33,135 bases of DNA from Phycicoccus flavus (GTDB lineage Bacteria > Actinomycetota > Actinomycetes > Actinomycetales > Dermatophilaceae), in contig NZ_SAYU02000029.1 in NCBI RefSeq assembly GCF_004025965.2, positions 12,934-46,068 on the forward strand. Reading direction: 5' to 3'. Both the position numbers and the translations under genes were made by a program. The notes under the pieces are model-generated. The model saw nothing but the letters and a program-made list of their open reading frames with translations, was not told where the DNA came from and ran no database searches. Shown here piece after piece: positions 6,196 through 17,229 of the stretch; the stretch's first letter is position 1; each line of letters begins with the position of its first letter.

Positions 6196-8139
6196 GTGCC
6201 GGGTCGGATCAGGGCCGAGGACGTCCAGACGGTCAAGGAGCGCTCGTCCATCGAGGACGTCGTCCGTGACCACGTGACGCTCCGCCCGGCCGGGGTCGGC
6301 TCGCTCAAGGGCCTCTGTCCCTTCCACGACGAGAAGACCCCGAGCTTCACCGTCCGCCCCGCCGTCGGCAGCTACCACTGCTTCGGCTGCGGCGAGGGCG
6401 GCGACGTCCTGGACTTCGTGCAGAAGGTCGAGCACCTCTCCTTCACCGAGTCCGTCGAGCGGCTCGCCGCCAAGGTCGGCATGGAGCTGCGCTACGACGA
6501 GGGTGGGGGCCCGCGCTCCGGTGGGGTGTCGCTCGGCAAGCGCAGCCGCCTCGTCGAGGCGCACCGGGTCGCCGAGGAGTTCTACACGGCGGCGCTGCTC
6601 GACCGCGCTCGCGGCGACGCCCGCGTCGGCCGGGACTTCCTGCGCGAGCGCGGGTTCGACTCCGCGGCGGTCGAGGTCTTCGGGGTCGGCTACGCGCCCG
6701 CGGACGGCGACGCGCTCACCCGTCACCTGCTCGAGCGCGGCTTCACCGAGGACGAGATGACCACCGGCGGGCTCACCGGCCGCGGCAGCCGCGGTCTGTA
6801 CGACCGCTTCCGCGGGCGTCTGGTCTGGCCGATCCGCGACACCACCGGCGACACCGTCGGCTTCGGCGCCCGGCGCCTGTTCGACGCGGACCGGATCGCG
6901 GCGAAGTACCTCAACACATCCGAGACGCCGATCTACAAGAAGGCGCAGGTCCTCTACGGCCTCGACCTCGCGAAGAAGGCCATCGCCGGCGACCGGCGGG
7001 CGGTGGTCGTCGAGGGGTACACCGACGTCATGGCCGCGCACCTGGCCGGGGTCGAGGGGGCCGTCGCCACGTGCGGCACGGCCTTCGGCGTCGACCACAT
7101 CAAGATCCTCCGGCGCATCATGCGCGACGAGGCCGACCACGCGCCCGCCCGGGTCGTCTTCACCTTCGACGGGGACGCCGCCGGCCAGAAGGCCGCCATG
7201 AAGGCGTTCGGCGAGGACCAGCGCTGGGCCGCGCAGTCCTTCGTCGCCGTCGCCCCCGACGGCATGGACCCCTGCGAGCTGCGGCTGGCCAGGGGCGACG
7301 CCGCCGTCAAGGCGCTCGTCGACGACGCCGCCCCGATGTTCGAGTTCGCGGTCCGCACGACGATCCGCCGCTTCGACCTCGACACCGCCGAGGGCCGGGT
7401 GCAGGCGATGAAGGCGGTGGCCCCGATCATAGGCTCCATCCGCGACACGAGCCTGCGTCCCGAGTACACCCGCACCGTCGCGGGGTGGCTCGGCATGGAG
7501 GTCGAGCAGGTCGCCGAGGCCGTCCGCCGGGCGGGCCGGCTGCCGACGCCGGAGGAGGTCGACGCCCGCCGCGCACCGGCCGGGACCGACGAGGTCCCCG
7601 AACCGGGACCGGGGGAGGGCGGCCCCGCCCTGCCCCCGCCCGACCTTCGCGACCCCGTCGTCGCCGTCGAGCGGCAGCTGCTGCAGGCACTGGTCCAGCT
7701 GCCCGGGCAGTTCCCCGACTCCACCATCGAGTCCCTCGAGCCCGAGGCCCTCACCGCGCCGGCGCACCGGGCCGTGCTCGACGGCATCCGGATCGCCGCG
7801 GCGAACGGCCACCGCAGCAGGTCGACGGCGGCCTGGGTGGCGGCGGTCGGCGAGGCCGCGCCGGCGCCGGCCCGCCCGCTCGTCGCCGAGCTGTCCGTCC
7901 AGGACCTGCCGGTGCGCTTCGACGCCGCGACGGGGCTGCCGCCGCGCCGCTACCTCGACAGCCTCGTCGTCGGCGTCCGCGACGCGCTGCTCGGCCGGCG
8001 CATCGCCGACGCCATGGCCTCGCTGCGCCGGGTCGAGAACGACCCGGTCTCGGACCGCGACTCGGTGCACGAGCACCGGACGACGCTCCAGGCCCTCGAG
8101 CTGGAACGGGTGCGGCTGCGGGCGGGGACGGGCTCGTGA
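6196..8139 (+). CDS. dnaG: DNA primase
   Basis: The protein is 647 aa, normal for actinobacterial DnaG. It makes RNA primers for lagging-strand synthesis at the replication fork and is recruited by the DnaB helicase. The N-terminal CHC2 zinc-binding domain has C41, H44, C62 and C65 (CPFH ... CFGC). The RNA polymerase core has FGARRL and the Toprim residues in VVVEGYTDVMAAH (~residues 270-280) and the acidic FTFDGDAAG (~320-330). The C-terminal region (~480-647) corresponds to the helicase-interacting domain after a Pro/Gly-rich linker. The GTG start at 6196 is set by the GGGAGG ribosome site just upstream and by the conserved N-terminus GRIRAEDVQTVKERSSIEDVV. The stop overlaps the next start by 4 bases. 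Confidence 0.97.
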   Translation: MPGRIRAEDVQTVKERSSIEDVVRDHVTLRPAGVGSLKGLCPFHDEKTPSFTVRPAVGSYHCFGCGEGGDVLDFVQKVEHLSFTESVERLAAKVGMELRYDEGGGPRSGGVSLGKRSRLVEAHRVAEEFYTAALLDRARGDARVGRDFLRERGFDSAAVEVFGVGYAPADGDALTRHLLERGFTEDEMTTGGLTGRGSRGLYDRFRGRLVWPIRDTTGDTVGFGARRLFDADRIAAKYLNTSETPIYKKAQVLYGLDLAKKAIAGDRRAVVVEGYTDVMAAHLAGVEGAVATCGTAFGVDHIKILRRIMRDEADHAPARVVFTFDGDAAGQKAAMKAFGEDQRWAAQSFVAVAPDGMDPCELRLARGDAAVKALVDDAAPMFEFAVRTTIRRFDLDTAEGRVQAMKAVAPIIGSIRDTSLRPEYTRTVAGWLGMEVEQVAEAVRRAGRLPTPEEVDARRAPAGTDEVPEPGPGEGGPALPPPDLRDPVVAVERQLLQALVQLPGQFPDSTIESLEPEALTAPAHRAVLDGIRIAAANGHRSRSTAAWVAAVGEAAPAPARPLVAELSVQDLPVRFDAATGLPPRRYLDSLVVGVRDALLGRRIADAMASLRRVENDPVSDRDSVHEHRTTLQALELERVRLRAGTGS

Positions 8140-8666
8140 GGCTCCGCTGGACCGGGATGCGCCGCCCGCCGGTGCCCGCCGACGTCGTCGCCGCCATCGC
8201 GCCCACCGAGGGTGACCGGCTGCTCGCCTGGGCGGCGAACGACCGCGGCACGACCGTCGTCGCCGGCCGGCACCACGTCCACGTCGTCGCCCCCGGGAGC
8301 GACGCGGCCCTCCAGGTGCGGCTGTCCCGGCCGTGGCACCTCGTCGACGCCGGCACCTGGAGCGCCGAGGGCCGGCTCACCGTCACCTGGGTCGACGGGC
8401 ACCCGCCGCTGCGGGTCGACCTCGCCGAGCCGGGCATGCTCCCGGAGACCGTCCGCGAGCGGGTGCAGGCCTCGGTCGTGCTGGCCGAGACCGTCGACCT
8501 CGGCCCTCGCCGCACCGCCAAGGTCGTCGTCCGCCGCGACCTCGCCACCGGCGCGCTGCTGTCCCAGGCGGTGCTCGGGGCGGGCGTGCGCTCCTCCGAT
8601 CCGGGGGTCGCCGAGCAGGTCCGCGCAGGCCTGGCGCGGGTCCGCGAACAGGTCGGCCTGGACTGA
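8136..8666 (+). CDS. Conserved hypothetical protein translationally coupled to dnaG
   Basis: The protein is 176 aa. The GTG start overlaps the dnaG stop (GTGA, 8136-8139), so the two are almost certainly co-translated. The sequence looks soluble, with no signal peptide or membrane segment. It has a repeating beta pattern (TTVVAGRHHVHVVAPG, VRLSRPWHLVDAGTWSAEGRLTVTW) and a helical C-terminus. Short proteins of this kind are common just after dnaG in actinomycetes but have no assigned function that I know of. A link to replication is inferred from position only. Confidence 0.8.
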   Translation: MRLRWTGMRRPPVPADVVAAIAPTEGDRLLAWAANDRGTTVVAGRHHVHVVAPGSDAALQVRLSRPWHLVDAGTWSAEGRLTVTWVDGHPPLRVDLAEPGMLPETVRERVQASVVLAETVDLGPRRTAKVVVRRDLATGALLSQAVLGAGVRSSDPGVAEQVRAGLARVREQVGLD

Positions 8667-8753
8667 GCGGATCGGGCCGCACCCGATTTCACCCCACCCC
8701 GCCGGGGTTGCTATCGTTTCTTCTCGCTGCCGCGGCGATCCCGTGGTGGCCCT

Positions 8754-8826
8754 TCCCCTGTAGCTCAACTGGCAGAGCATTCGGCTGTTAACCGGAGGGT
8801 TGTTGGTTCGAGTCCAACCGGGGGAG
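8754..8826 (+). tRNA. trnN: tRNA-Asn (GTT)
   Basis: All arms pair. The acceptor TCCCCTG (8754-8760) pairs with CGGGGGA (8819-8825). The D-arm is GCTC/GAGC. The anticodon stem TTCGG/CCGGA encloses loop CTGTTAA with anticodon GTT. The T-arm GTTGG (8802-8806) pairs with CCAAC (8814-8818) around TTCGAGT. G8826 is the discriminator base and is followed by CA, so a full CCA is not encoded. A terminator hairpin follows at once. Confidence 0.97.
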
Positions 8827-8835
8827 CACTTCGAA

Positions 8836-8871
8836 AGGCCCCTGACCTGCGGAAACGCGAGTCGGGGGCCT
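8836..8871 (+). terminator. Terminator of tRNA-Asn
   Basis: AGGCCCCTGAC (8836-8846) pairs with GTCGGGGGCCT (8861-8871), with one G·T pair and a 14-base loop. It lies ten bases past the tRNA and is followed by a short pyrimidine stretch. Confidence 0.75.
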
Positions 8872-9181
8872 CTCACTTCGGGACTTGCATCGCCGATGCG
8901 TCGTTCGCGCACCGTCAGCGTGGCTGGATCAACGTCTGGTCCGGCGCGGTCCTGGCGCTCGTCACCGCTGGCTCGACACGGTCCGCATGAGCCCGAGCCT
9001 GCTCTCGCGTCAACGTCGCGACGTGGCACGACCCGTTCATCGAGCGTTCACGGCTCGGGGCGTGAACAGGTCCACTCCACGCGAGTTCAATGACGGAGGT
9101 GTCGCTCCCGGGTCATGGGGGCCGCCGCTGCGTGACGCGCCGGGCGCCGCAGCCTCCGAACGACCGGACCGAGGAGGTCCC
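8872..9181. other. Non-coding interval between tRNA-Asn and the PHP gene
   Basis: About 310 bases. ORFs here have no family resemblance and poor codon structure. The right end carries AGGAGGT (about 9172-9178), the ribosome site of the following gene. No other clear element is seen. Confidence 0.5.
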
Positions 9182-10942
9182 GTGTCCCACGGCCACTCCC
9201 ACCCCCACTCGCACGGCGACGCGCGCCCACACGCGCACGGCGAGCACGACCACGAGCACGCCCCGGCCGAGCCGCTGAGCGACGAGCAGCGCGCCGTCCT
9301 CGACCTCGGGGTCGCCGACTCCGACCTGCCGCCCGCCGGCCTGGCCCGCCGCAACATCCTGCGGACCGCCGGGATCCTCGGCGCGAGCGCGGCTGGTGCC
9401 TCCGTCTTCGGGGTCGGCCAGGCGGCGGCCGCGGACGGCGCCGAACGCTCCCGGCGGGCCCCGCGGAACGGCTACCTCTGGCTGGCCGGTGACCACCACA
9501 TCCACACCCAGTACAGCTCCGACGCGATGTACCGCGTCGTCGACCAGGTGCAGCACGCGCACGCCTACGGCCTGGACTGGATGGTCATCACCGACCACGG
9601 CAGCGTCGCGCACGCCAAGCTCGGCGTCGAGAAGGTCAACCCGGACATCCGCGCCGCCCGCGAGGCGTTCGACAACGAGATGCTCGTGTTCCAGGGGCTG
9701 GAGTGGAACATCCCGGCCGCGGAGCACGGCACCGTGTTCGTCCACCCCGGGGCCAACGAGGTCGCGGTGCTCAGGGAGTTCGAGAACTCCTTCGACGGGT
9801 CGGTGAACGGCACGGGGTCGTCGTCGCCCGCCAACGAGCAGCAGGCCCTGCTCGGCCTGGACTTCCTCGCGACGAGCATCACGTCCGGCCGCATCGCGGA
9901 CGCCGCCTTCTTCGCGAACCACCCCGCCCGCAAGGGCATCGACAGCCCGCACGAGATCCGGGGCTGGCGCGACCGGCAGCCGCGGATCGCGCTCGGCATG
10001 GAGGGCGCGCCCGGCCACCAGGCCGCGGGCATCCCGAAGCCGTACGGCCCGGGCTCGGGGCGCGGCTACTACGACAACTCCCCGTCCGCGGCGTCGTTCC
10101 CGGGCTATCCGCTGGCCAGCTACATCACCTACGGCGGGTTCGACTGGATGACCTCGACCGTCGGTGGCCTGTGGGACAGCCTGCTGTCCGAGGGCAAGAC
10201 CTGGTGGATCACCGCCAACTCCGACTCCCACACGATCTACCTCGACGACGCCGTCCGACCCCCGGGCGCCGACACCTCGGCCTACTTCGCCGAGAACGGC
10301 CGGTACGGGGACCCGGTGCACGGGTCGGCGGGCGGGAACGTGAACAACGGCGACTTCTGGCCGGGCTTCTACAGCCGCACGCACGTCGGCGCCCGGAAAG
10401 CGACCTACGCCGCGGTGCTGGAGGGTCTGCGCGCAGGACGGATGTGGGTGGACCACGGGCGGCTGCTCGCCGGCCTCGAGGTCCGGGTCCGCGAGCGGGG
10501 GACGCGCGACCCCGGGCACCCGCTGGGGTCGGTGGTTCCCGTGGGCAAGGGCAAACGCCTCGAGCTCGTCGTCGCCATCACCAAGCAGACGCTGCCGAAC
10601 TGGGCGCAGGTCGTGCCGCACCTGGCGAAGGTCGATGTCATCCGGGGAGCCGTCACCGGTCCGGCGTCGGACCGCGACACCTTCAGCGCACCGGGCACGC
10701 GGGTGGTCAAGTCCTGGGACGTCTCGTCCTCGCCGACCGCGGTGACGCTCACCCATGACCTGGGCGCGGTCGACGACGGCTTCTACGTCCGGCTGCGCGG
10801 CAGCGACGGCCGGCGGCTCGCCCCGGGTCTGGGCGGCGCGTCCGTCGACCCCGCCGGACCCGCAGCCGACGTCATCGGCGACGCCGACCCGTGGAACGAC
10901 CTGTGGTTCTACACCAACCCGATCTGGGTGCTGCCAAGGTGA
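9182..10942 (+). CDS. Tat-exported PHP-family metallohydrolase with His-rich leader
   Basis: The protein is 586 aa. Residues 1-26 hold ten histidines in HGHSHPHSHG- and EHDHEH-type runs, before a Tat-like signal with R56-R57 (LARRNILRTAGILGASAAG). The mature enzyme is a PHP (polymerase and histidinol phosphatase) fold: D104-H-H-I-H108, VITDHGS with D138-H139, GLEWN with E174, and NSDSH with D348/H350. All of these are typical ligands of a di- or trinuclear metal site for phosphoester hydrolysis. A long insert and a C-terminal beta-rich domain (~430-586) follow. The substrate is unknown. The GTG start at 9182 is set by AGGAGGT just upstream and keeps the His tail; a later start would lose it. 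A hypothetical gene follows after 7 bases. Confidence 0.87.
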   Translation: MSHGHSHPHSHGDARPHAHGEHDHEHAPAEPLSDEQRAVLDLGVADSDLPPAGLARRNILRTAGILGASAAGASVFGVGQAAAADGAERSRRAPRNGYLWLAGDHHIHTQYSSDAMYRVVDQVQHAHAYGLDWMVITDHGSVAHAKLGVEKVNPDIRAAREAFDNEMLVFQGLEWNIPAAEHGTVFVHPGANEVAVLREFENSFDGSVNGTGSSSPANEQQALLGLDFLATSITSGRIADAAFFANHPARKGIDSPHEIRGWRDRQPRIALGMEGAPGHQAAGIPKPYGPGSGRGYYDNSPSAASFPGYPLASYITYGGFDWMTSTVGGLWDSLLSEGKTWWITANSDSHTIYLDDAVRPPGADTSAYFAENGRYGDPVHGSAGGNVNNGDFWPGFYSRTHVGARKATYAAVLEGLRAGRMWVDHGRLLAGLEVRVRERGTRDPGHPLGSVVPVGKGKRLELVVAITKQTLPNWAQVVPHLAKVDVIRGAVTGPASDRDTFSAPGTRVVKSWDVSSSPTAVTLTHDLGAVDDGFYVRLRGSDGRRLAPGLGGASVDPAGPAADVIGDADPWNDLWFYTNPIWVLPR

Positions 10943-10949
10943 CTCGCGG

Positions 10950-11423
10950 GTGAGGACGACAACGCTGCGCGGCGGCTGGGCCGACACCCGGGCGGCCGAA
11001 CACGCCCTGGCCCGGTCCGAGGCCGGACACGACGACGGGGTCTCACTGCTGGGGGACCCCGCCGTCGGGGCGTACACCGTCTTCGTCCCTGGTGACGACG
11101 ACTCCCCGCCGCAGGTCGCCGTCGTCGTGGCGGCCTCGCCCAAGGACGCTCCCGCCGGCGCCCGGGCCTTCCGGTTCCCCGGTCACGAGACTCTGGTCGG
11201 CGCGATGACCGTCGGCGAGCTCCTCGAGCGCAGCAGTATCGGTCGCGTCCTCGACCTCACCGGTGCTCCGGTCGACCCCCGGACGTCCGTCGACACCCAG
11301 GACTTCGTCCGCCCGACCGTTCAGGACGGCGTCCTCACCCTCGTGGTCCGCCCCGGTGTGCACGGAGTCCTCCCGTTCGAGCAACCTCACCCGACTCCGT
11401 GTTGCGCTGACCACGACGGCTGA
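10950..11423 (+). CDS. Hypothetical protein downstream of the PHP-family gene
   Basis: The protein is 157 aa. The GTG start at 10950 lies 7 bases past the PHP stop, with AAGGTGA (10936-10942) spanning that stop as a ribosome site, so the pair is probably an operon. There is no signal peptide or membrane segment. The core TVFVPGDDDSPPQVAVVVAAS and TLVGAMTVGELLERSSIGRVLDLTG suggest an alpha/beta or beta-rich fold. I do not recognise a family. The end is Cys/His-bearing (TPCCADHDG), which might bind a metal, but this is speculative. Confidence 0.6.
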   Translation: MRTTTLRGGWADTRAAEHALARSEAGHDDGVSLLGDPAVGAYTVFVPGDDDSPPQVAVVVAASPKDAPAGARAFRFPGHETLVGAMTVGELLERSSIGRVLDLTGAPVDPRTSVDTQDFVRPTVQDGVLTLVVRPGVHGVLPFEQPHPTPCCADHDG

Positions 11424-11506
11424 CACGCCACCGGGACAGGCTGACGGGCACGAGAGACGCCGTGGACGGTTGCACGCCGTGTCCGGCCCCCCGGCGGGCG
11501 TCAGGG

Positions 11507-11734
11507 TCAGGCGCCGGGCCGGACCTCGGTCGGGGTGGGCCTGTCGGCGAAGGAGAGCCGGTCTCGAGCCGCGAGTTCGACGGTACGAGCCGAGACCGCA
11601 CGGTTCGAGGTGGTGTACGTGCGGACGGCGAGCCGCACCGCTGCCTCGACGACGGCCGGGTCGAGGTCGGGGAAGCGACGCTCCAGGCGCTGACGGACGA
11701 CATCGATCGTGCCCGGGTGGAAGGCGTCGGTCAT
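11507..11734 (-). CDS. Small three-helix-bundle protein
   Basis: The protein is 75 aa from ATG 11734; an upstream GTG at 11782 would add 16 residues. The core FHPGTIDVVRQRLERRFPDL and VVEAAVRLAVRTY ... VSARTVELAARDRL matches the small actinobacterial proteins described as three-helix-bundle dimerisation domains (helix, PDLDPAVVEAAV helix, ERAAR-type helix). These are cytosolic and of unknown role. CATTCT lies 6 bases before the chosen start. The gene is isolated and antisense to weakly coding plus-strand sequence. Confidence 0.65.
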   Translation of the reverse strand: MTDAFHPGTIDVVRQRLERRFPDLDPAVVEAAVRLAVRTYTTSNRAVSARTVELAARDRLSFADRPTPTEVRPGA

Positions 11735-12090
11735 CCCATGAGAATGACGCCGACCGATGCTCGTCGGCAACTCGGGGTCCACCTCTCGTTCGTCGAACGG
11801 GCGCCCGACAGACCCCTGGCAACTCGTTCTCGCCTCGTCGAGCGTGTCTCCCGAGAACGTCTTGCGGTGTCGAGGGCCATGCTCGGCCGACGGGGCTTAC
11901 CGGACGGTGACAGAAGCAGCCGCCCCGTGTAAGGCGTACCTGGTGTCGTCCCAGGACGCTGCCGGTGTCATCTCGACCGACGCCGCGACCAACGGTTTCG
12001 GCGCGCTGCCGCTGAATCGCGCCTACGAGGAGTTCACCTGCAGAGGGCACCGGTTCGCCCGCTGACCTCCCGTTCACGCATCGCAGGACG
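11735..12090. other. Mostly non-coding stretch with a possible coding remnant
   Basis: No full gene is recognised. On the plus strand, 11931-12065 reads with strong G/C third positions (CKAYLVSSQDAAGVI ... LNRAYEEFTCRGHRFAR) up to a stop at 12063-12065. Upstream of 11930 the codon pattern fades. It may be the 3' end of a decayed gene; I could not place it in a family. Confidence 0.3.
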
Positions 12091-12127
12091 CCGGCCCCGC
12101 CATCACGGCCACCGTCCTCGGGGCCGG
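12091..12127 (-). terminator. Hairpin downstream of the tandem sensor-domain gene
   Basis: CCGGCCCCG (12091-12099) pairs with CGGGGCCGG (12119-12127) around a 19-base loop. It lies 15 bases past the stop of the minus-strand gene ending at 12142. Confidence 0.55.
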
Positions 12128-12141
12128 TACCGCGCGGAGTG

Positions 12142-13560
12142 TCAGGCGCCGTCCTGCGCCACCCGGATCTCGGCCACGAGCGGGGCGACGGCCTCGCGGG
12201 ACTCGACGACGGTCGCGGAGTCGGCCGAGATCGCCCCTCCCCAGGCCTCACCCGCCGCGGAGTCGACGAGCAGGGCGTTACCGACGAGGACGAGCCGGTG
12301 GATGTCGCTGGCCATGATGGTGTCCCCGGGACCGTAGCTCTGCGCCCAGACGAAGGTGTCCTCGCCTTCGGTGTCCCCGAACACCTCGAGGCGGCTCCCG
12401 TCCGCGGAGTCGGCGCAGCGCCGGACGGTCCGGGCGGTCCAGTCGAGCGCGGCGCGAGCCTCGGTGGTGGTCGCGAACACGGCGAGGGTGCGGTTGCGCA
12501 TGTCCTCGGGGTTGGCCGCCGTGGCGTGGGCAACACGCGCGGCGAGCGAGCCCGTGAGGATCGGACGGCCGCAGACGTCGACCGCGGGACCCGGCCCGGC
12601 CTCCACCCGCACCTCGTCGCCGGCCTCGTCCCGATCGGGGTAGCCGCGGGTCAGCGCGATCCCCGTGGGGTCGAGCAGCGTCGTCGGCCCCGGGGTCGAC
12701 GACGGCCGCGAGGTCGGCGTCGGCGTCCCGGTGCCGGACGGGGACCGGGTGCTCGTCGGTCCGGGGTCGGCGGGCGGATCCACTGCCGGGATCCCGAGCG
12801 CCTCGCGGACGGCGTCCAGGACCGGCCGGACCTGCTCGCGCGACGGACCGAGGTCGCCGTCGTCCACCCAGCCGCCGACCAGCTCGCCGGCCGTCGAGTC
12901 GACGAGCAGGGTCTCGCCGAGCCGGACCACCCGGTGGTTGCTGCCGGACATCACCCGGAAGTCCGCACCCTCGCCGATGCCGTAGTTCACCGACCACAGG
13001 ACGGTGTCCTCGCCCTCGGCGGCCCCGAGCGCGACAAAACGGCCCGGGCCGTCGTGCACGCGGGCGCACCGCTGCACCGCCCCGACCGTCCAGGTCAGGG
13101 CCCGCGCGGCCTCCTCTCCGGTGTCGAAGACCATGAGGGTGCGGCCGCGCTGGTCCTCCGGGTTCGCCGACTCCACGTGGGCGACCCGGGACGCGAGGGA
13201 GCCGGTGAGGACGTCCTCGCCGCACAGGTCGACCGCCGGGCCCGGGCCCGCCGAGACCCGGACCGGGTCGCCGGCCTCGTCGACGTCCGGGTAGCCGTGC
13301 TCGAGCGGGATGAGCGTGGGATCGAGCAGGGGCGAGCTCGGCGAGCCGGACGTCCTGCCGACGGCGGCGTCGGCCGCGGAGGCCCCGCTGCCGATGGGCG
13401 AGCCGCCGAGGACGAGCCCGACGCCGACCGCCGCGACGACGCCGGCCGTGGCGAACCCGGCGCCGAGGGCTCGCGACCCCGGGCGGCTCCGGGATCCGCC
13501 GGACGGGTGGGGGCCGTGCGGGTCGTGGTCGGTCCATGGCTGGTCGTGGTCGTGCGACAT
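12142..13560 (-). CDS. Membrane-anchored protein with two tandem sensor-like domains
   Basis: The protein is 472 aa. A His/Asp-rich cytosolic tail (MSHDHDQPWTDHDPHGPHP) and a basic stretch precede one membrane helix (~31-52). Two copies of a ~175-residue domain follow outside the cell (~78-250 and ~288-470), joined by a Thr/Pro/Ser linker. Each copy has GYPDxDEAGD, AVD(L/V)CG, LTGSLA(S/A)RVAH, ANPED and a second Cys near RRCA/QRCA, probably forming a disulfide. The pattern is reminiscent of PknH-type extracellular sensor domains, but that assignment is tentative. The second copy is very close to the single domain in the neighbouring 310-aa protein (both contain GPGDTIMASDIHR). A GGGAGGA ribosome site lies 7 bases before the ATG. 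An ECF-type promoter at 13598-13623 matches the one in front of the sigma gene, so this is a likely regulon member. Confidence 0.8.
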   Translation of the reverse strand: MSHDHDQPWTDHDPHGPHPSGGSRSRPGSRALGAGFATAGVVAAVGVGLVLGGSPIGSGASAADAAVGRTSGSPSSPLLDPTLIPLEHGYPDVDEAGDPVRVSAGPGPAVDLCGEDVLTGSLASRVAHVESANPEDQRGRTLMVFDTGEEAARALTWTVGAVQRCARVHDGPGRFVALGAAEGEDTVLWSVNYGIGEGADFRVMSGSNHRVVRLGETLLVDSTAGELVGGWVDDGDLGPSREQVRPVLDAVREALGIPAVDPPADPGPTSTRSPSGTGTPTPTSRPSSTPGPTTLLDPTGIALTRGYPDRDEAGDEVRVEAGPGPAVDVCGRPILTGSLAARVAHATAANPEDMRNRTLAVFATTTEARAALDWTARTVRRCADSADGSRLEVFGDTEGEDTFVWAQSYGPGDTIMASDIHRLVLVGNALLVDSAAGEAWGGAISADSATVVESREAVAPLVAEIRVAQDGA

Positions 13561-13597
13561 GACGGGTCCTCCCGGTCCGAGGTGCTCTCACCTCGGG

Positions 13598-13623
13598 TAC
13601 GCCTGGGCATCGGCCCCGGTTGC
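13598..13623 (-). promoter_or_regulatory. ECF-type promoter of the tandem sensor-domain gene
   Basis: Read on the minus strand: ATGCAACC (core GCAACC, 13618-13623), a 16-base spacer, then CGTA (13598-13601). It is the same -35, spacer length and -10 as in front of the sigma gene at 15086-15111. The ATG is 37 bases downstream of the -10. Confidence 0.7.
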
Positions 13624-13633
13624 ATCCGATCGC

Positions 13634-14566
13634 TCAGCCGCCGGCCAGGGCCTGCCGGATCGCCGCCACGACCGGGGCCACCGCCTCGCGGGACTGCACC
13701 ACGTTACCGGCGTCAGCGGAGTCCGCGCCGCCCCAGGCCTCCCCCCCGACCGAGTCCACGAGCAGGGTGTTTCCGCTGAGGACCACGCGGTGGATGTCGC
13801 TGGCCATGATCGTGTCTCCCGGGCCGAAGTTCTGCGCCCAGACCAGGGTCCCGGCGCCTTCGGCGTCGCCGAAGGACTCGAGGCGGGACCCGGCCGGGCT
13901 CGCCGCACAGGCGTCGACCTGGCCGGCCGTCCACTCCAGGGCGGCGCGCGCCTCGTCAGCGGTGCGGAAGACCATGAGCGTCCGGAAGCGGAGGTCCTCC
14001 GGGTTCGCCGAGGTCGCGTGGGCGACCCGGGCGGCCAGCGACCCGGTGAGCACCGGGCTGCCGCAGAGGTCCACCGCGCGCCCGGGGCCGGACTCCACGA
14101 CGACGGGGTCACCCGCCTCGTCCCGGTCCGGGTACCCGGCCGTGAGCGGAATGGCGGCCGGGTCGATGAGGCGCACCTCGTCCGGACCGGACGACGTGGT
14201 CCCGGTCGGCGTCGCCGCGGCCGACGGCGTGCCGCTGGGGTCCGGGGTGGCAGTGGCCGACTCCGTCGGGGTCGGCGTCGGGGTGGGCGTCGGGGTCGGC
14301 GTCGGGCTGTCGGTCCGGGTCGGCCCGGCGGGCAGGGGTCTCGGCGCCGGGTCCTGCCCGAGTCCTCCTGAGACGAGGAGCCCCCCGACCACGACGACGG
14401 CCGCGGTCGTCCCCGCGGCGGCCCCGAACAGCGCGTTCCGTCGCCGCCGACGACGGTCACCGAGACCGCGGACCTCGGCTGGGTCGAGGACCGGGTGGCG
14501 GGCGTCCGCCGTGTCACGCATCGACGCGAAGGCGTTCTCCAGCGGGTCGCCGGGGTGCTCAGGCAT
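13634..14566 (-). CDS. Single-pass membrane protein with one sensor-like domain; candidate anti-sigma partner
   Basis: The protein is 310 aa. The cytosolic N-terminus (~1-43) is short, ends in an Arg run (GLGDRRRRRRN) and resembles the proteins that commonly follow SigE-family sigma genes. A membrane helix (~44-66) leads to a Pro/Thr linker with seven consecutive PT pairs and then a sensor domain (~133-308) with GYPDRDEAGD, AVDLCG, GSLAARVAHAT, a second Cys in VDACA, and GPGDTIMASDIHR. The ATG at 14566 overlaps the sigma-factor stop by 8 bases, so the two are translationally coupled. Position, topology and coupling suggest it senses an extracellular signal and controls the sigma factor. There is no zinc-type anti-sigma HxxxCxxC motif, so the mode of inhibition, if any, is unknown. 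Confidence 0.8.
   Translation of the reverse strand: MPEHPGDPLENAFASMRDTADARHPVLDPAEVRGLGDRRRRRRNALFGAAAGTTAAVVVVGGLLVSGGLGQDPAPRPLPAGPTRTDSPTPTPTPTPTPTPTESATATPDPSGTPSAAATPTGTTSSGPDEVRLIDPAAIPLTAGYPDRDEAGDPVVVESGPGRAVDLCGSPVLTGSLAARVAHATSANPEDLRFRTLMVFRTADEARAALEWTAGQVDACAASPAGSRLESFGDAEGAGTLVWAQNFGPGDTIMASDIHRVVLSGNTLLVDSVGGEAWGGADSADAGNVVQSREAVAPVVAAIRQALAGG
14262..14311. repeat. GTCGGGGTCGGC-type simple repeat encoding a Pro-Thr linker
   Basis: Six-base units of GTCGGN recur across this stretch, with 12-base higher-order copies, and encode the PT repeats between the membrane helix and sensor domain of the 310-aa protein. The unit is a multiple of three, so gain or loss changes linker length without breaking the frame. 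Confidence 0.7.
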
Positions 14567-15047
14567 GGGTGGCTCCTTCGTCGAGCAGCGCGGCCAGGGC
14601 GGCGCGGCCTCGCGAGAGGCGGGCCTTCACCGTGCCGACCGGGGCGCGGGTCTCCGCGGCCACCTCGTCGACCGACAGGTCCGCGATGTGATGCAGGACG
14701 ATGGCCCGCCGCTGCGCCTCCGGGATCCGGCGGAGGGCCTCGACGAGCGCCGTGCGCTTCTCGTCCGGGCCGTCCGTGGTCACGGGGAGCCCGACAGCGC
14801 GGTCGCCGGCGCGGGAGTCCATCCGGTGGCGCCGCCACCGCGAGACGGCCAGCCGGTGGGCCGTCGTCCGGACCCAGGCGTCCCGCCCGCGGGCGTCGTC
14901 GAGCCTCCGTCGGCGGGCCCAGGCCCGGATGAACGCCTCCTGGACGCAGTCGCGGGCCTCCTCCTCGTTCCCCGTCATCGCGTGCACCTGGCGCACGATC
15001 CGGGGGAAGGCAGCCTCGTACCAGGCGTCGAACTCGTCGGCGTCCAT
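14559..15047 (-). CDS. SigE-family ECF RNA polymerase sigma factor
   Basis: The protein is 162 aa, typical for the short SigE family, with only regions sigma2 and sigma4. Sigma2 runs ~5-72 (FDAWYEAAFPRIVRQVHAMT, then CVQEAFIRAWARRRRL, and a WVRTTAHRLAVSRWRR end). Sigma4 runs ~100-158 (ALRRIPEAQRRAIVLHHIADL, then SVDEVAAETRAPVGTVKARL as the helix-turn-helix). It directs RNA polymerase to alternative promoters. ATG 15047 is set by the family start and a GGGAGG site about 10 bases upstream. The promoter at 15086-15111 has the same GCAACC-N16-CGTA elements as the one in front of the tandem sensor gene, which suggests autoregulation. Confidence 0.93.
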   Translation of the reverse strand: MDADEFDAWYEAAFPRIVRQVHAMTGNEEEARDCVQEAFIRAWARRRRLDDARGRDAWVRTTAHRLAVSRWRRHRMDSRAGDRAVGLPVTTDGPDEKRTALVEALRRIPEAQRRAIVLHHIADLSVDEVAAETRAPVGTVKARLSRGRAALAALLDEGATHA

Positions 15048-15085
15048 CCGGCGCTGCCTCCCTCTCCGGCCTCGTCCCACCCCTC

Positions 15086-15111
15086 TACGCACGGGACGGC
15101 CCCACGGTTGC
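15086..15111 (-). promoter_or_regulatory. ECF-type promoter of the sigma-factor gene
   Basis: Read on the minus strand: ATGCAACC (core GCAACC, 15106-15111), a 16-base spacer (15090-15105), then CGTA (15086-15089). GCAACC/CGTA resembles the GGAAC–CGT class of ECF promoters. The second copy is at 13598-13623. Confidence 0.7.
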
Positions 15112-15277: not shown

Positions 15278-15949
15278 TCAGCGGTCGACGAGGCCGTGCT
15301 CGTGGGCGAAGACGACGACCTGGACGCGGTCACGGAGGCCGAGCTTGCGCAGCAAGGCCCCGACGTGGGTCTTGACCGTCGACTCAGAAGCGAACACGTC
15401 CGCCGCGATCTCGGCGTTGGAGCGTCCCCGCGCCACCCCCGCGAAGACCTCGAGCTCGCGGTCGGTGAGGGTCGTGAACGCCGGTGGCACGGGGCGATCG
15501 GGGACGACGAGACCGGCCATGAGGACGGCCAGGTCCGTGGGGGCGAGGACCCCGTTGCCGGCGTGGACGGTGCGGATCGCCTCGTGCAGTCGCTGCGGGG
15601 ACACGTCCTTGAGGAGGAACCCGCTGGCACCGTGCTGGATCGCGGTCGCGGCCCGGTCGTCGAGGTCGAAGGTCGTGAGGACAACGACGCGCACCGGCAC
15701 CGTCCGACGCTCCACCCGTTCGGGCAGGAGGATCTGGCGGGTCGCCTCGACCCCGTCCATCTCCGGCATCCTCATGTCCATCAGGACGACGTCGGGCTCC
15801 AGCCGGTCGACCGCCTCCAGCGCCTCGAGCCCGTCGGCGGCCTGCCCGACGACCTCGAGGTCCGGAGCGCCGCCGACGATGACCGCGATCCCGGCCCTGA
15901 AGAGCTCCTGGTCGTCGACGAGGAGGACGCGGATCGGCCGGTCGCTCAT
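15278..15949 (-). CDS. NarL/FixJ-family response regulator
   Basis: The protein is 223 aa. The receiver domain (~5-120) has the acidic pocket D12-D13, phosphoacceptor D58 in VVLMDMRMPEMDG, the Thr of VVVLTTFD and the Lys of GFLLKDVSP. A LuxR-type helix-turn-helix (~155-215) follows: LTDRELEVFAGVARGRSNAEIA, then STVKTHVGALLRKLGLRDR. It binds DNA when phosphorylated, presumably by the kinase encoded just upstream. The ATG overlaps the kinase stop by 4 bases (15946-15949). Targets are not visible here, but the operon also encodes a cell-wall carboxypeptidase. Confidence 0.95.
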   Translation of the reverse strand: MSDRPIRVLLVDDQELFRAGIAVIVGGAPDLEVVGQAADGLEALEAVDRLEPDVVLMDMRMPEMDGVEATRQILLPERVERRTVPVRVVVLTTFDLDDRAATAIQHGASGFLLKDVSPQRLHEAIRTVHAGNGVLAPTDLAVLMAGLVVPDRPVPPAFTTLTDRELEVFAGVARGRSNAEIAADVFASESTVKTHVGALLRKLGLRDRVQVVVFAHEHGLVDR

Positions 15950-17229
15950 GAGCTCCCCACCGGGATCCACGCCGTGGCCGCGAAGCAGGGAACACCGTCC
16001 TGGACCACGCGGTCGACGCTCAAGGCCCCGCCGGCCGCGTGGAGTCGGTCGCTCATGCCGGGGATCCCGGTCCGAGCCGTGCTGGTTCCGTCGATCACCT
16101 CTGCCACGTCGGTCACGTCGTCGTCGACCGTGTTGGTCACCCGAAGGACGACGTGGCGTGGGGCGGACGGTGTCGGCCACCATCTCTCCACTCGGACGGG
16201 TCCGCGGTCGTCGCCGTGCCGGACGGCGTTCGTCAGCATCTCTTGCAGCACCCTCGAGGAGACGACAGCCTGGTCGGGTGGCAGCGGCCGCGGTGGGCCG
16301 TGGTCGCTCACCTCCACGACGTGCCCGGCGCTGCGGACCCCGGCGACGAGCTCGCCGAGCCGGTCGCTGTCACGCGGGGTGCCGTCGGCCGACGCGCCGA
16401 GCACCTGCTTGACCTCGACCAGGGAGGATCGAGCGGCGCCGGCGATCGTCGTCAGCACCTGCTGGACCTGCTCGGGGTCGTCGCGCAGGTAGCGACCCGA
16501 CTCGGCCTGCGCGAGGATGACGGTGAGGGAGTGGCCGACGACGTCGTGCACGTCCCGGGCGAGACGCGCCCGGCCTTCTTGCAGAGTCGCCATCTCGGCG
16601 GCCCGTCGCCGCTCCTCGGCCGCCTCCTCGGCGGCTACCTGCGCCTCGCGCGCCGCCGCCTCGGAGCGTCGGGCCCGGGTGAGGGACCTGACGACCAGCC
16701 CGGCTAGCCAGAACGAGCTGAGCGCGAGCAGGCCGACCACTCCCGCGGACACCCGGAGGCTGAGGCCGCCGGTCGTGACGTCGGACAGGAGCGACAGCAG
16801 GAGGTCCTGGGCCAGGGCGCCGCCGAGGTCGTCGCGGGACACGAGCCTGAGGACGACCAGGGCGAGGAGCGGGATCGAGAGTCCCGCAGCCGCGACGGCG
16901 AGTGGGCGGCCCCAGCGGGCCGCGCCGTAGAGGACGAGGACGACGGCGACCTGGACCGCGAGAAACGGACCGCCCGCGGCGACCTGGCCGGCGAGGCACG
17001 ACCACGAGATGGTCAGTGCGACGACCGGGTGGCGGCCCATGAGCGCGACGGCCGCCACGACGGCGAGGATCACGACGACCTCGGCCACAGTCGTGGGCCC
17101 CACGGTCACTCCGACAAGAGCGACGTCGAAGACACCGACGACGGAGACGATGACGGCCAGCGTCACGCCCGGCCACCACGGTGCCCGCGCAGCCTCGTGC
17201 ACCTCCGCGGCGTGGGGGTCGACGCTCAC
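15946..17229 (-). CDS. Sensor histidine kinase, HisKA_3 (NarX/DesK-like) type
   Basis: The protein is 427 aa. The N-terminal half is a membrane sensor of about five to six hydrophobic helices (~20-185) with little outside the membrane, followed by a coiled-coil linker (ARRSEAAAREAQVAAEEAAEE). The dimerisation helix carries the phosphorylated H228 in LARDVHDVVGHSLT. The ATPase domain has an N-box (QEMLTNAVRHG) and a G-box (TGIPGMSDRLHAAGG). The short loops suggest a signal sensed in or at the membrane. The GTG start (17227-17229) directly abuts the TAG stop of the carboxypeptidase gene, and the stop overlaps the regulator start, so all three are one operon. Confidence 0.92.
   Translation of the reverse strand: MSVDPHAAEVHEAARAPWWPGVTLAVIVSVVGVFDVALVGVTVGPTTVAEVVVILAVVAAVALMGRHPVVALTISWSCLAGQVAAGGPFLAVQVAVVLVLYGAARWGRPLAVAAAGLSIPLLALVVLRLVSRDDLGGALAQDLLLSLLSDVTTGGLSLRVSAGVVGLLALSSFWLAGLVVRSLTRARRSEAAAREAQVAAEEAAEERRRAAEMATLQEGRARLARDVHDVVGHSLTVILAQAESGRYLRDDPEQVQQVLTTIAGAARSSLVEVKQVLGASADGTPRDSDRLGELVAGVRSAGHVVEVSDHGPPRPLPPDQAVVSSRVLQEMLTNAVRHGDDRGPVRVERWWPTPSAPRHVVLRVTNTVDDDVTDVAEVIDGTSTARTGIPGMSDRLHAAGGALSVDRVVQDGVPCFAATAWIPVGSS

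Follow-up and report, generated by a model that had tools for sequence, protein, structure and literature searches.

Why should a bacterium keep three copies of one extracellular domain, divided between two proteins, beside a single gene for an extracytoplasmic function (ECF) sigma factor, with a promoter of the same type ahead of each protein's transcription unit? The question is raised by a 33,135-nt stretch of DNA from Phycicoccus flavus (assembly GCF_004025965.2, contig NZ_SAYU02000029.1, positions 12,934-46,068, forward strand), referred to here as the window, in which positions 12142-15111 encode a sigma factor (P0001), a single-sensor membrane protein (P0002) and a tandem-sensor protein (P0003). 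Our reading of the sequence is that these genes probably form an autoregulated ECF sigma system with a short-tailed, non-zinc receptor and a co-induced, tailless tandem receptor that would act as a ligand sink or a ligand-handling effector. A preliminary description of this DNA had pictured much the same arrangement as a self-contained regulon, and its separate claims are taken up below where the results bear on them. The features in question, all on the minus strand, are as follows.

15086-15111, minus strand: predicted ECF promoter of the sigma-receptor operon, GCAACC-N16-CGTA, 38 nt ahead of the ATG
14559-15047, minus strand: ECF sigma factor gene of the SigE family (P0001, 162 amino acids), from TIGR02983, Pfam Sigma70_r2 and r4_2, and orthologues
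14559-14566, minus strand: 8-base overlap of the sigma and receptor genes, which may couple their translation
13634-14566, minus strand: single-sensor membrane protein (P0002, 310 amino acids), predicted anti-sigma factor and receptor, from hydropathy and tail profile
14435-14566, minus strand: cytosolic tail of P0002, about 44 amino acids with a run of six Arg, the predicted sigma-binding part
13637-14170, minus strand: sensor domain of P0002, single copy, predicted PknH-like fold (AlphaFold, Foldseek)
13598-13623, minus strand: predicted ECF promoter of the tandem gene, GCAACC-N16-CGTA, 37 nt ahead of the ATG
13577-13596, minus strand: inverted repeat CCGAGGT-GAGAGC-ACCTCGG, a possible terminator of the first operon, or an operator
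12142-13560, minus strand: tandem-sensor protein (P0003, 472 amino acids), with one N-terminal hydrophobic segment and without a tail of the P0002 type
12796-13329, minus strand: first tandem sensor domain, the more diverged, 58% identical to the single copy
12145-12678, minus strand: second tandem sensor domain, 72% identical to the single copy

Sigma factor, promoter and receptor tail

P0001 holds sigma regions 2 and 4 and scores 144.5 bits on TIGR02983 against a cut-off of 141.55, which places it in the SigE family as first proposed. Its orthologues are 80% and 68% identical to it in two other members of the genus, Phycicoccus avicenniae BSK3Z-2 and Phycicoccus sp. CSK15P-2 (the two relatives), and 61% identical in G192, a genome of another family; the sigma genes of these four genomes make up the focal clade. 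Across the genus, a match with an expectation value (E) of 1e-25 or better was found in 5 of 12 genomes, three of which, P. flavus included, hold a close orthologue. Searches of the order and the genus led to 41 places, and the 35 that were fetched and examined do not amount to 35 independent cases, since some are near-copies of one another. The 8-base overlap of the sigma and single-sensor genes, already seen in the preliminary description, stands, and it recurs with a receptor-like gene in P. avicenniae, CSK15P-2 and G192 and, taking the first start found, in 21 of the 33 related sigma loci with a listed partner. The sigma locus is flanked by other genes in both P. avicenniae and CSK15P-2. 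In the window, genes for a LuxR-type response regulator and a HisKA_3 histidine kinase (15278-17229) lie just upstream of the sigma gene.

Both reported copies of GCAACC-N16-CGTA are exact and equal in spacer length, and the window has no third exact match, where 0.03 matches are expected and at least two were found in none of 100 shuffles. Across the 153 contigs of the genome (4.26 Mb) there are six exact N16 sites compared with one for the reversed pattern. Five of the six sit 29-46 nt before a start codon, namely the two described above and those before a paralogous SigE-family sigma gene on contig C108 (32 nt), a gene on C92 (29 nt) whose product resembles a class II aldolase by eye, and an acyltransferase gene on C137 (46 nt); the sixth, on C85, falls within an open frame. 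Because five of the six precede start codons, the motif is not equally common inside genes in P. flavus; had it been so, one of the conditions named in advance as undoing the proposal would have applied. With N17 spacers admitted, the CGTA sites number eight, including one on C77, 91 nt before a start, and one at C85:19605, near which no start of a long frame was found. The relaxed pattern GCAACC-N16/17-CGT[AC] gives 60 matches compared with 8 for reversed controls; of its 52 CGTC sites, genic and intergenic taken together, only the two at the sigma genes of contig C79 are used as evidence.

Conservation of the promoter says more. It is kept before the sigma gene in the two relatives (N17 and N16) and in G192 (N16), where it is the sole exact match genome-wide, that is, in all four members of the focal clade. 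In 28 of the 35 related loci GCAACC-N16/17-CGT[A/C/G] lies no more than 170 bp ahead of the sigma match (seven are without it); background windows have it in 4 of 1324 cases, and none of the 35 reversed controls does. This record makes it likely that the sigma factor activates its own promoter, as had been suggested. In the excerpted text of PMC3817407, most ECF sigma factors autoregulate and specificity combines both promoter boxes; in that of PMC8103513, autoregulation is predicted for about 55%. A further site in P. avicenniae (L124, G001:C22:180874-180899), a GCAACC-N16-CGTA closely like the focal sigma promoter, lies 124 nt before a gene for a lipoprotein-like protein of 211 amino acids with no Pfam match.

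P0002 begins with the Arg-rich tail, followed by its only hydrophobic stretch (residues 45-70), a Pro/Thr-rich linker and the sensor domain; the tail stretch VRGLGDRRRRRR is invariant across the three Phycicoccus. Profile 1 was built from 29 non-focal partners, of which it covers the N-terminal 75 residues; on it the P0002 tail scores 39.4 bits, where 200 shuffled tails have a mean of 6.9 and a maximum of 27.4. On a stricter profile 2 (21 proteins, 60 residues), from which eight partners with divergent tails had been dropped by eye, it scores 23.9 bits against a shuffled maximum of 6.1. The corresponding scores on profiles 1 and 2 are 31.0 and 23.6 for the P. avicenniae receptor, 28.5 and 30.8 for the G192 partner, and -2.0 and -15.4 for P0003. 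The tail associated with this sigma family is therefore carried by P0002 and not by P0003, in keeping with the earlier casting of the single-domain protein as the signal transducer. The absence of a zinc-type motif was likewise borne out, as HxxxCxxC, sought in P0002 and P0003, is found in neither, which leaves them outside Class I of the zinc anti-sigma factors. The P0002 tail would bind the sigma factor, and the short-tailed partners of SigE-family sigma factors would be anti-sigma factors. As a prediction from sequence, an autoregulated sigma factor with a short-tailed receptor, already a known kind of system, is well supported.

The sensor domain and its fold

The domain of about 175 amino acids that was reported once in P0002 and twice in P0003 does recur in this way, at 178 codons each as cut. 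All three copies keep a pair of cysteines 52 residues apart (168/220 in P0002; 113/165 and 330/382 in P0003), and the pair is invariant in five related domain copies. An AlphaFold model of the domain, built from a three-row alignment, has a predicted local distance difference test score (pLDDT) of 80.3 and a predicted template modelling score (pTM) of 0.82. Its best Foldseek matches are the soluble domains of TiME (7cu9, E 3e-5, query TM-score (TMq) 0.56; and 7cu8), and PknH (4esq) comes at rank 8 with a probability of 0.99, a TMq of 0.53 and an E of 0.011. On the strength of this model we read the domain as having a PknH-like fold and not as a formal member of PF14032.

The two relatives have single-domain receptors. 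The close form of the domain is rare, being present in 3 of 396 genomes of the order, P. flavus included; in the rows listed, 8 candidates per genome were scored. In a genome contig collection, the domain found two loci, both from Phycicoccus. The G192 partner bears a diverged copy. PF14032 itself matches at E 0.001 in 35 of the 396 genomes, 12 of them above the cut-off, and one sigma partner (L104, in G085) matches it weakly (E 0.001). Four of the 30 PF14032 loci fetched (of 39 matches) hold a related sigma gene in the stretch (L134 in G134, L139 in G042, L145 in G384 and L154 in G085); in L134 and L139 the match is apparently upstream of the sigma gene, judged from positions alone.

Several candidates were set aside. 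Two weak hits to the domain from the order (L010 and L011) were rejected on their frames, which by eye we take to be glycoside hydrolase-like and NAD-synthetase-like, respectively. When the domain alignment was run as a profile against the Protein Data Bank, mainly WD-40 repeat proteins came back, a result taken as spurious, and a scan of the genome contig collection with P0002 alone matched 428 stretches with no relative among them. In G384 (L155, reverse strand, 7859-14214), two SigE-family-like sigma genes that score below the TIGR02983 cut-off each overlap the gene of a tailed membrane protein, with further similar proteins, tailed and tailless, interleaved; against PF14032 one of these proteins gives E 1.4e-4, one 0.06 and the other four no match. 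As an independent parallel this cluster was rejected and it is only a lead, because comparison of its profile with that of the window domain was not significant.

The tandem gene and competing explanations

The tandem promoter has a T before and a G after the -35 block and a G before CGTA, matching all four sigma promoters of the focal clade, whereas the five promoters of C108-type sigma genes have a G before and a C or T after that block. This focal-type extension, read off the four sigma orthologues, fits only 3 of the 8 CGTA sites of the P. flavus genome, those of the sigma gene, the tandem gene and the C137 acyltransferase gene. The shared bases are support and not proof, because they were chosen after the sigma promoters had been seen; they fit the earlier proposal that the two-domain protein is induced together with the sigma factor. 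The C137 protein (697 amino acids) has an acyltransferase-3 domain (PF01757, E 2.8e-27), a C-terminus that is GDSL-like (PF13472, E 3.2e-5) at 24.9 bits, below the cut-off of 32.9, and a partial resemblance to the model of the acetyltransferase SucT, at 118.6 bits far below its cut-off. We take its arrangement of domains to be reminiscent of envelope O-acetyltransferases of the OatA type. Among the three Phycicoccus genomes with the domain, P. flavus alone has the tandem gene. In a tree of the domain copies, the two from the relatives separate from the three of the window with 100% support, and a duplication in the P. flavus lineage is the simplest reading but not the only one, because the tree is unrooted.

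Put together, these elements suggest a circuit in which the sigma factor is produced along with the product of the overlapping gene, a protein that crosses the membrane once and would hold it by a short cytosolic tail. The PknH-like outer domain would sense an extracellular or envelope signal, upon which the tail, through a change of shape or proteolysis, may free the sigma factor to transcribe both its own operon and the tandem gene from the same type of extended promoter. P0003 would most likely bind the ligand of P0002 without signalling, either as a sink, making the response sharper or bringing it to an end, or as a ligand-handling output, and the envelope acyltransferase, with its acyltransferase-3 and GDSL-like domains, is a further predicted target. 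The conserved promoter, the gene overlap, the tail, the domain copies, the predicted fold and the lack of a tandem gene in the two relatives are read from sequence, whereas we infer sigma binding, the ligand, release, co-induction and the sink role of P0003. A decoy role for P0003 is plausible; the fuller version, in which the two-headed tailless copy, induced from a promoter like the sigma factor's own, buffers the ligand and governs the threshold at which an envelope-modifying response starts, or how long it lasts, with the acyltransferase-3/GDSL enzyme as part of that response, is one that we put forward tentatively and rate as less likely than not.

A number of observations weigh against the autoregulated sigma factor with its single and tandem receptors as we read it. 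The C108 sigma gene has the same core motif before its own start. The bare core (N16 or N17) occurs 14 times in six other genomes compared with 12 for reversed controls, and because of this the bare counts carry little weight and that of the motif rests on position and conservation; 7 of the 14 sites directly precede a SigE-family-like sigma gene. The two relatives have 9 exact promoter matches between them, and an acyltransferase gene was seen downstream of none. PF14032 matches P0003 in two stretches (E 7e-6) at 26.5 bits, short of its cut-off of 27, gives no match on P0002, and found nothing in a genome-level search of P. flavus at E 0.001. The tail of the CSK15P-2 receptor scores 27.6 bits on profile 1 and a weak 7.8 on the stricter profile 2, and in the AlphaFold model of the whole P0002 the tail helices (8-21 and 29-47) have pLDDT below 50. 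The tandem gene is absent from P. avicenniae and CSK15P-2, which have the single-domain receptor only and a different gene next to it, and for this reason it is not essential to the switch. The dN/dS ratios (nonsynonymous to synonymous substitution, Nei-Gojobori) of the window copies against the relatives are high, at 0.56-1.38, though these estimates are rough because of strong GC bias.

The alternative that survives best, to which we give somewhat less than an even chance, is that P0003 works in favour of the response, as an effector or accessory co-receptor by which the ligand is presented, transported or neutralised, in place of a decoy that dampens it. A dN/dS of about 0.27 between the single and the second tandem copy (0.46 between the single and the first), equally rough, is compatible with retained function, and in G384 tailless proteins stand among tailed ones beside two sigma genes, though just one of six proteins there matches PF14032 below 0.001 and the profiles do not significantly agree; the sequence reads alike for an accessory role and for a sink.

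It is unlikely, in our estimation, that the twin promoters form part of a common network read by the C108-type sigma factor, or by both, with the tandem gene not specifically tied to the adjacent sigma gene. Like the C108 gene, similar sigma genes in four other genomes of the genus stand behind GCAACC-N16-CGTA, and among further sigma paralogues of P. flavus two on C79 and one on C115 have near versions of the promoter that end in CGTC, while one on C107 has none. Around the -35 block, however, none of the five C108-type promoters examined shows the T and G that the tandem promoter shares with the focal clade. The final -10 base also tracks the sigma tree: over 33 labelled rows it changes 5 times, where shuffling gives a mean of 13.7, although relatedness alone clusters such labels. 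The description of the regulon as self-contained is not supported, given the core promoter of the C108 sigma gene and the focal-type promoter at the C137 acyltransferase gene. On C79 (29046-31078; L022 and L023), two SigE-family-like sigma/partner pairs follow one another behind GCAACC-N16/17-CGTC promoters, and neither partner gave a PknH_C match.

More doubtful still is that most transcription of the tandem gene is run-through from the sigma operon, its own motif being chance or a relic: the two units share a strand across a gap of only 73 bases, a terminator-like site with a T run was looked for between them and none was found, and the bare motif barely exceeds its reversed control in the six other genomes, but the tandem promoter has exact spacing, the focal-type extension and a distance of 37 nt to the start, and the inverted repeat between the genes could block run-through. 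That repeat, just downstream of the tandem promoter and overlapping the expected transcription start, has perfect 7-bp arms and a 6-base loop; a 31-nt fold at it has an energy of -15 kcal/mol (z -2.46).

Known systems and wider meaning

The sigma-receptor pair, probably autoregulated, has its nearest counterparts in SigE-family ECF sigma factors with short-tailed partners, with which it shares a score above the family cut-off, the GCAACC-N16/17-CGT promoter and the 8-base overlap, and from which it differs in that the outer domain of the partner is PknH-like in P. flavus and its close relatives and that P. flavus adds a tailless tandem copy. The sensor domain resembles the extracellular domain of PknH (PF14032, 4esq) and the soluble domain of TiME (7cu8, 7cu9) in its predicted fold by Foldseek (TMq 0.47-0.56) and in its place outside the cell at the end of a linker, but here the domain, which stays below the Pfam cut-off, is joined to a predicted anti-sigma tail and not to a Ser/Thr kinase. 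The excerpted text of PMC7406223 gives the anti-sigma part of CnrY-type (class II) proteins as fewer than 50 amino acids in two helices, to which the P0002 tail, also below 50 amino acids and with two predicted helices of low confidence, may be likened by description; from the zinc class I domains treated in the same text it differs in its length and in having no HxxxCxxC. In Bacillus subtilis, according to the excerpted text of PMC4183432, SigV is held by RsiV, an anti-sigma factor that is the receptor for lysozyme, and transcribes oatA, which encodes an O-acetyl transferase. A membrane anti-sigma factor with an outer domain as receptor, as predicted for P0002, is common to both systems, and the predicted acyltransferase-3/GDSL-like target has its counterpart in oatA; the parallel is one of logic with no sequence relation claimed, and that text mentions no tandem receptor copy for RsiV. 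No ECF anti-sigma factor with a PknH-like domain appeared in the titles and beginnings of abstracts of the open-access literature, among the matches listed. What appears to be new here is the PknH-like outer domain on a receptor of the anti-sigma type, together with an apparently co-regulated tailless tandem copy.

These comparisons suggest that the ECF anti-sigma factor, another class of signalling protein, has been fitted with a sensor fold known from PknH, a kinase of mycobacteria, and they offer a small, testable case where the output of a receptor may include an extra, non-signalling receptor. A shared tail with exchangeable outer domains, together with a -10 base that tracks the sigma clade, could help to predict the partners and targets of unstudied actinobacterial sigma factors.

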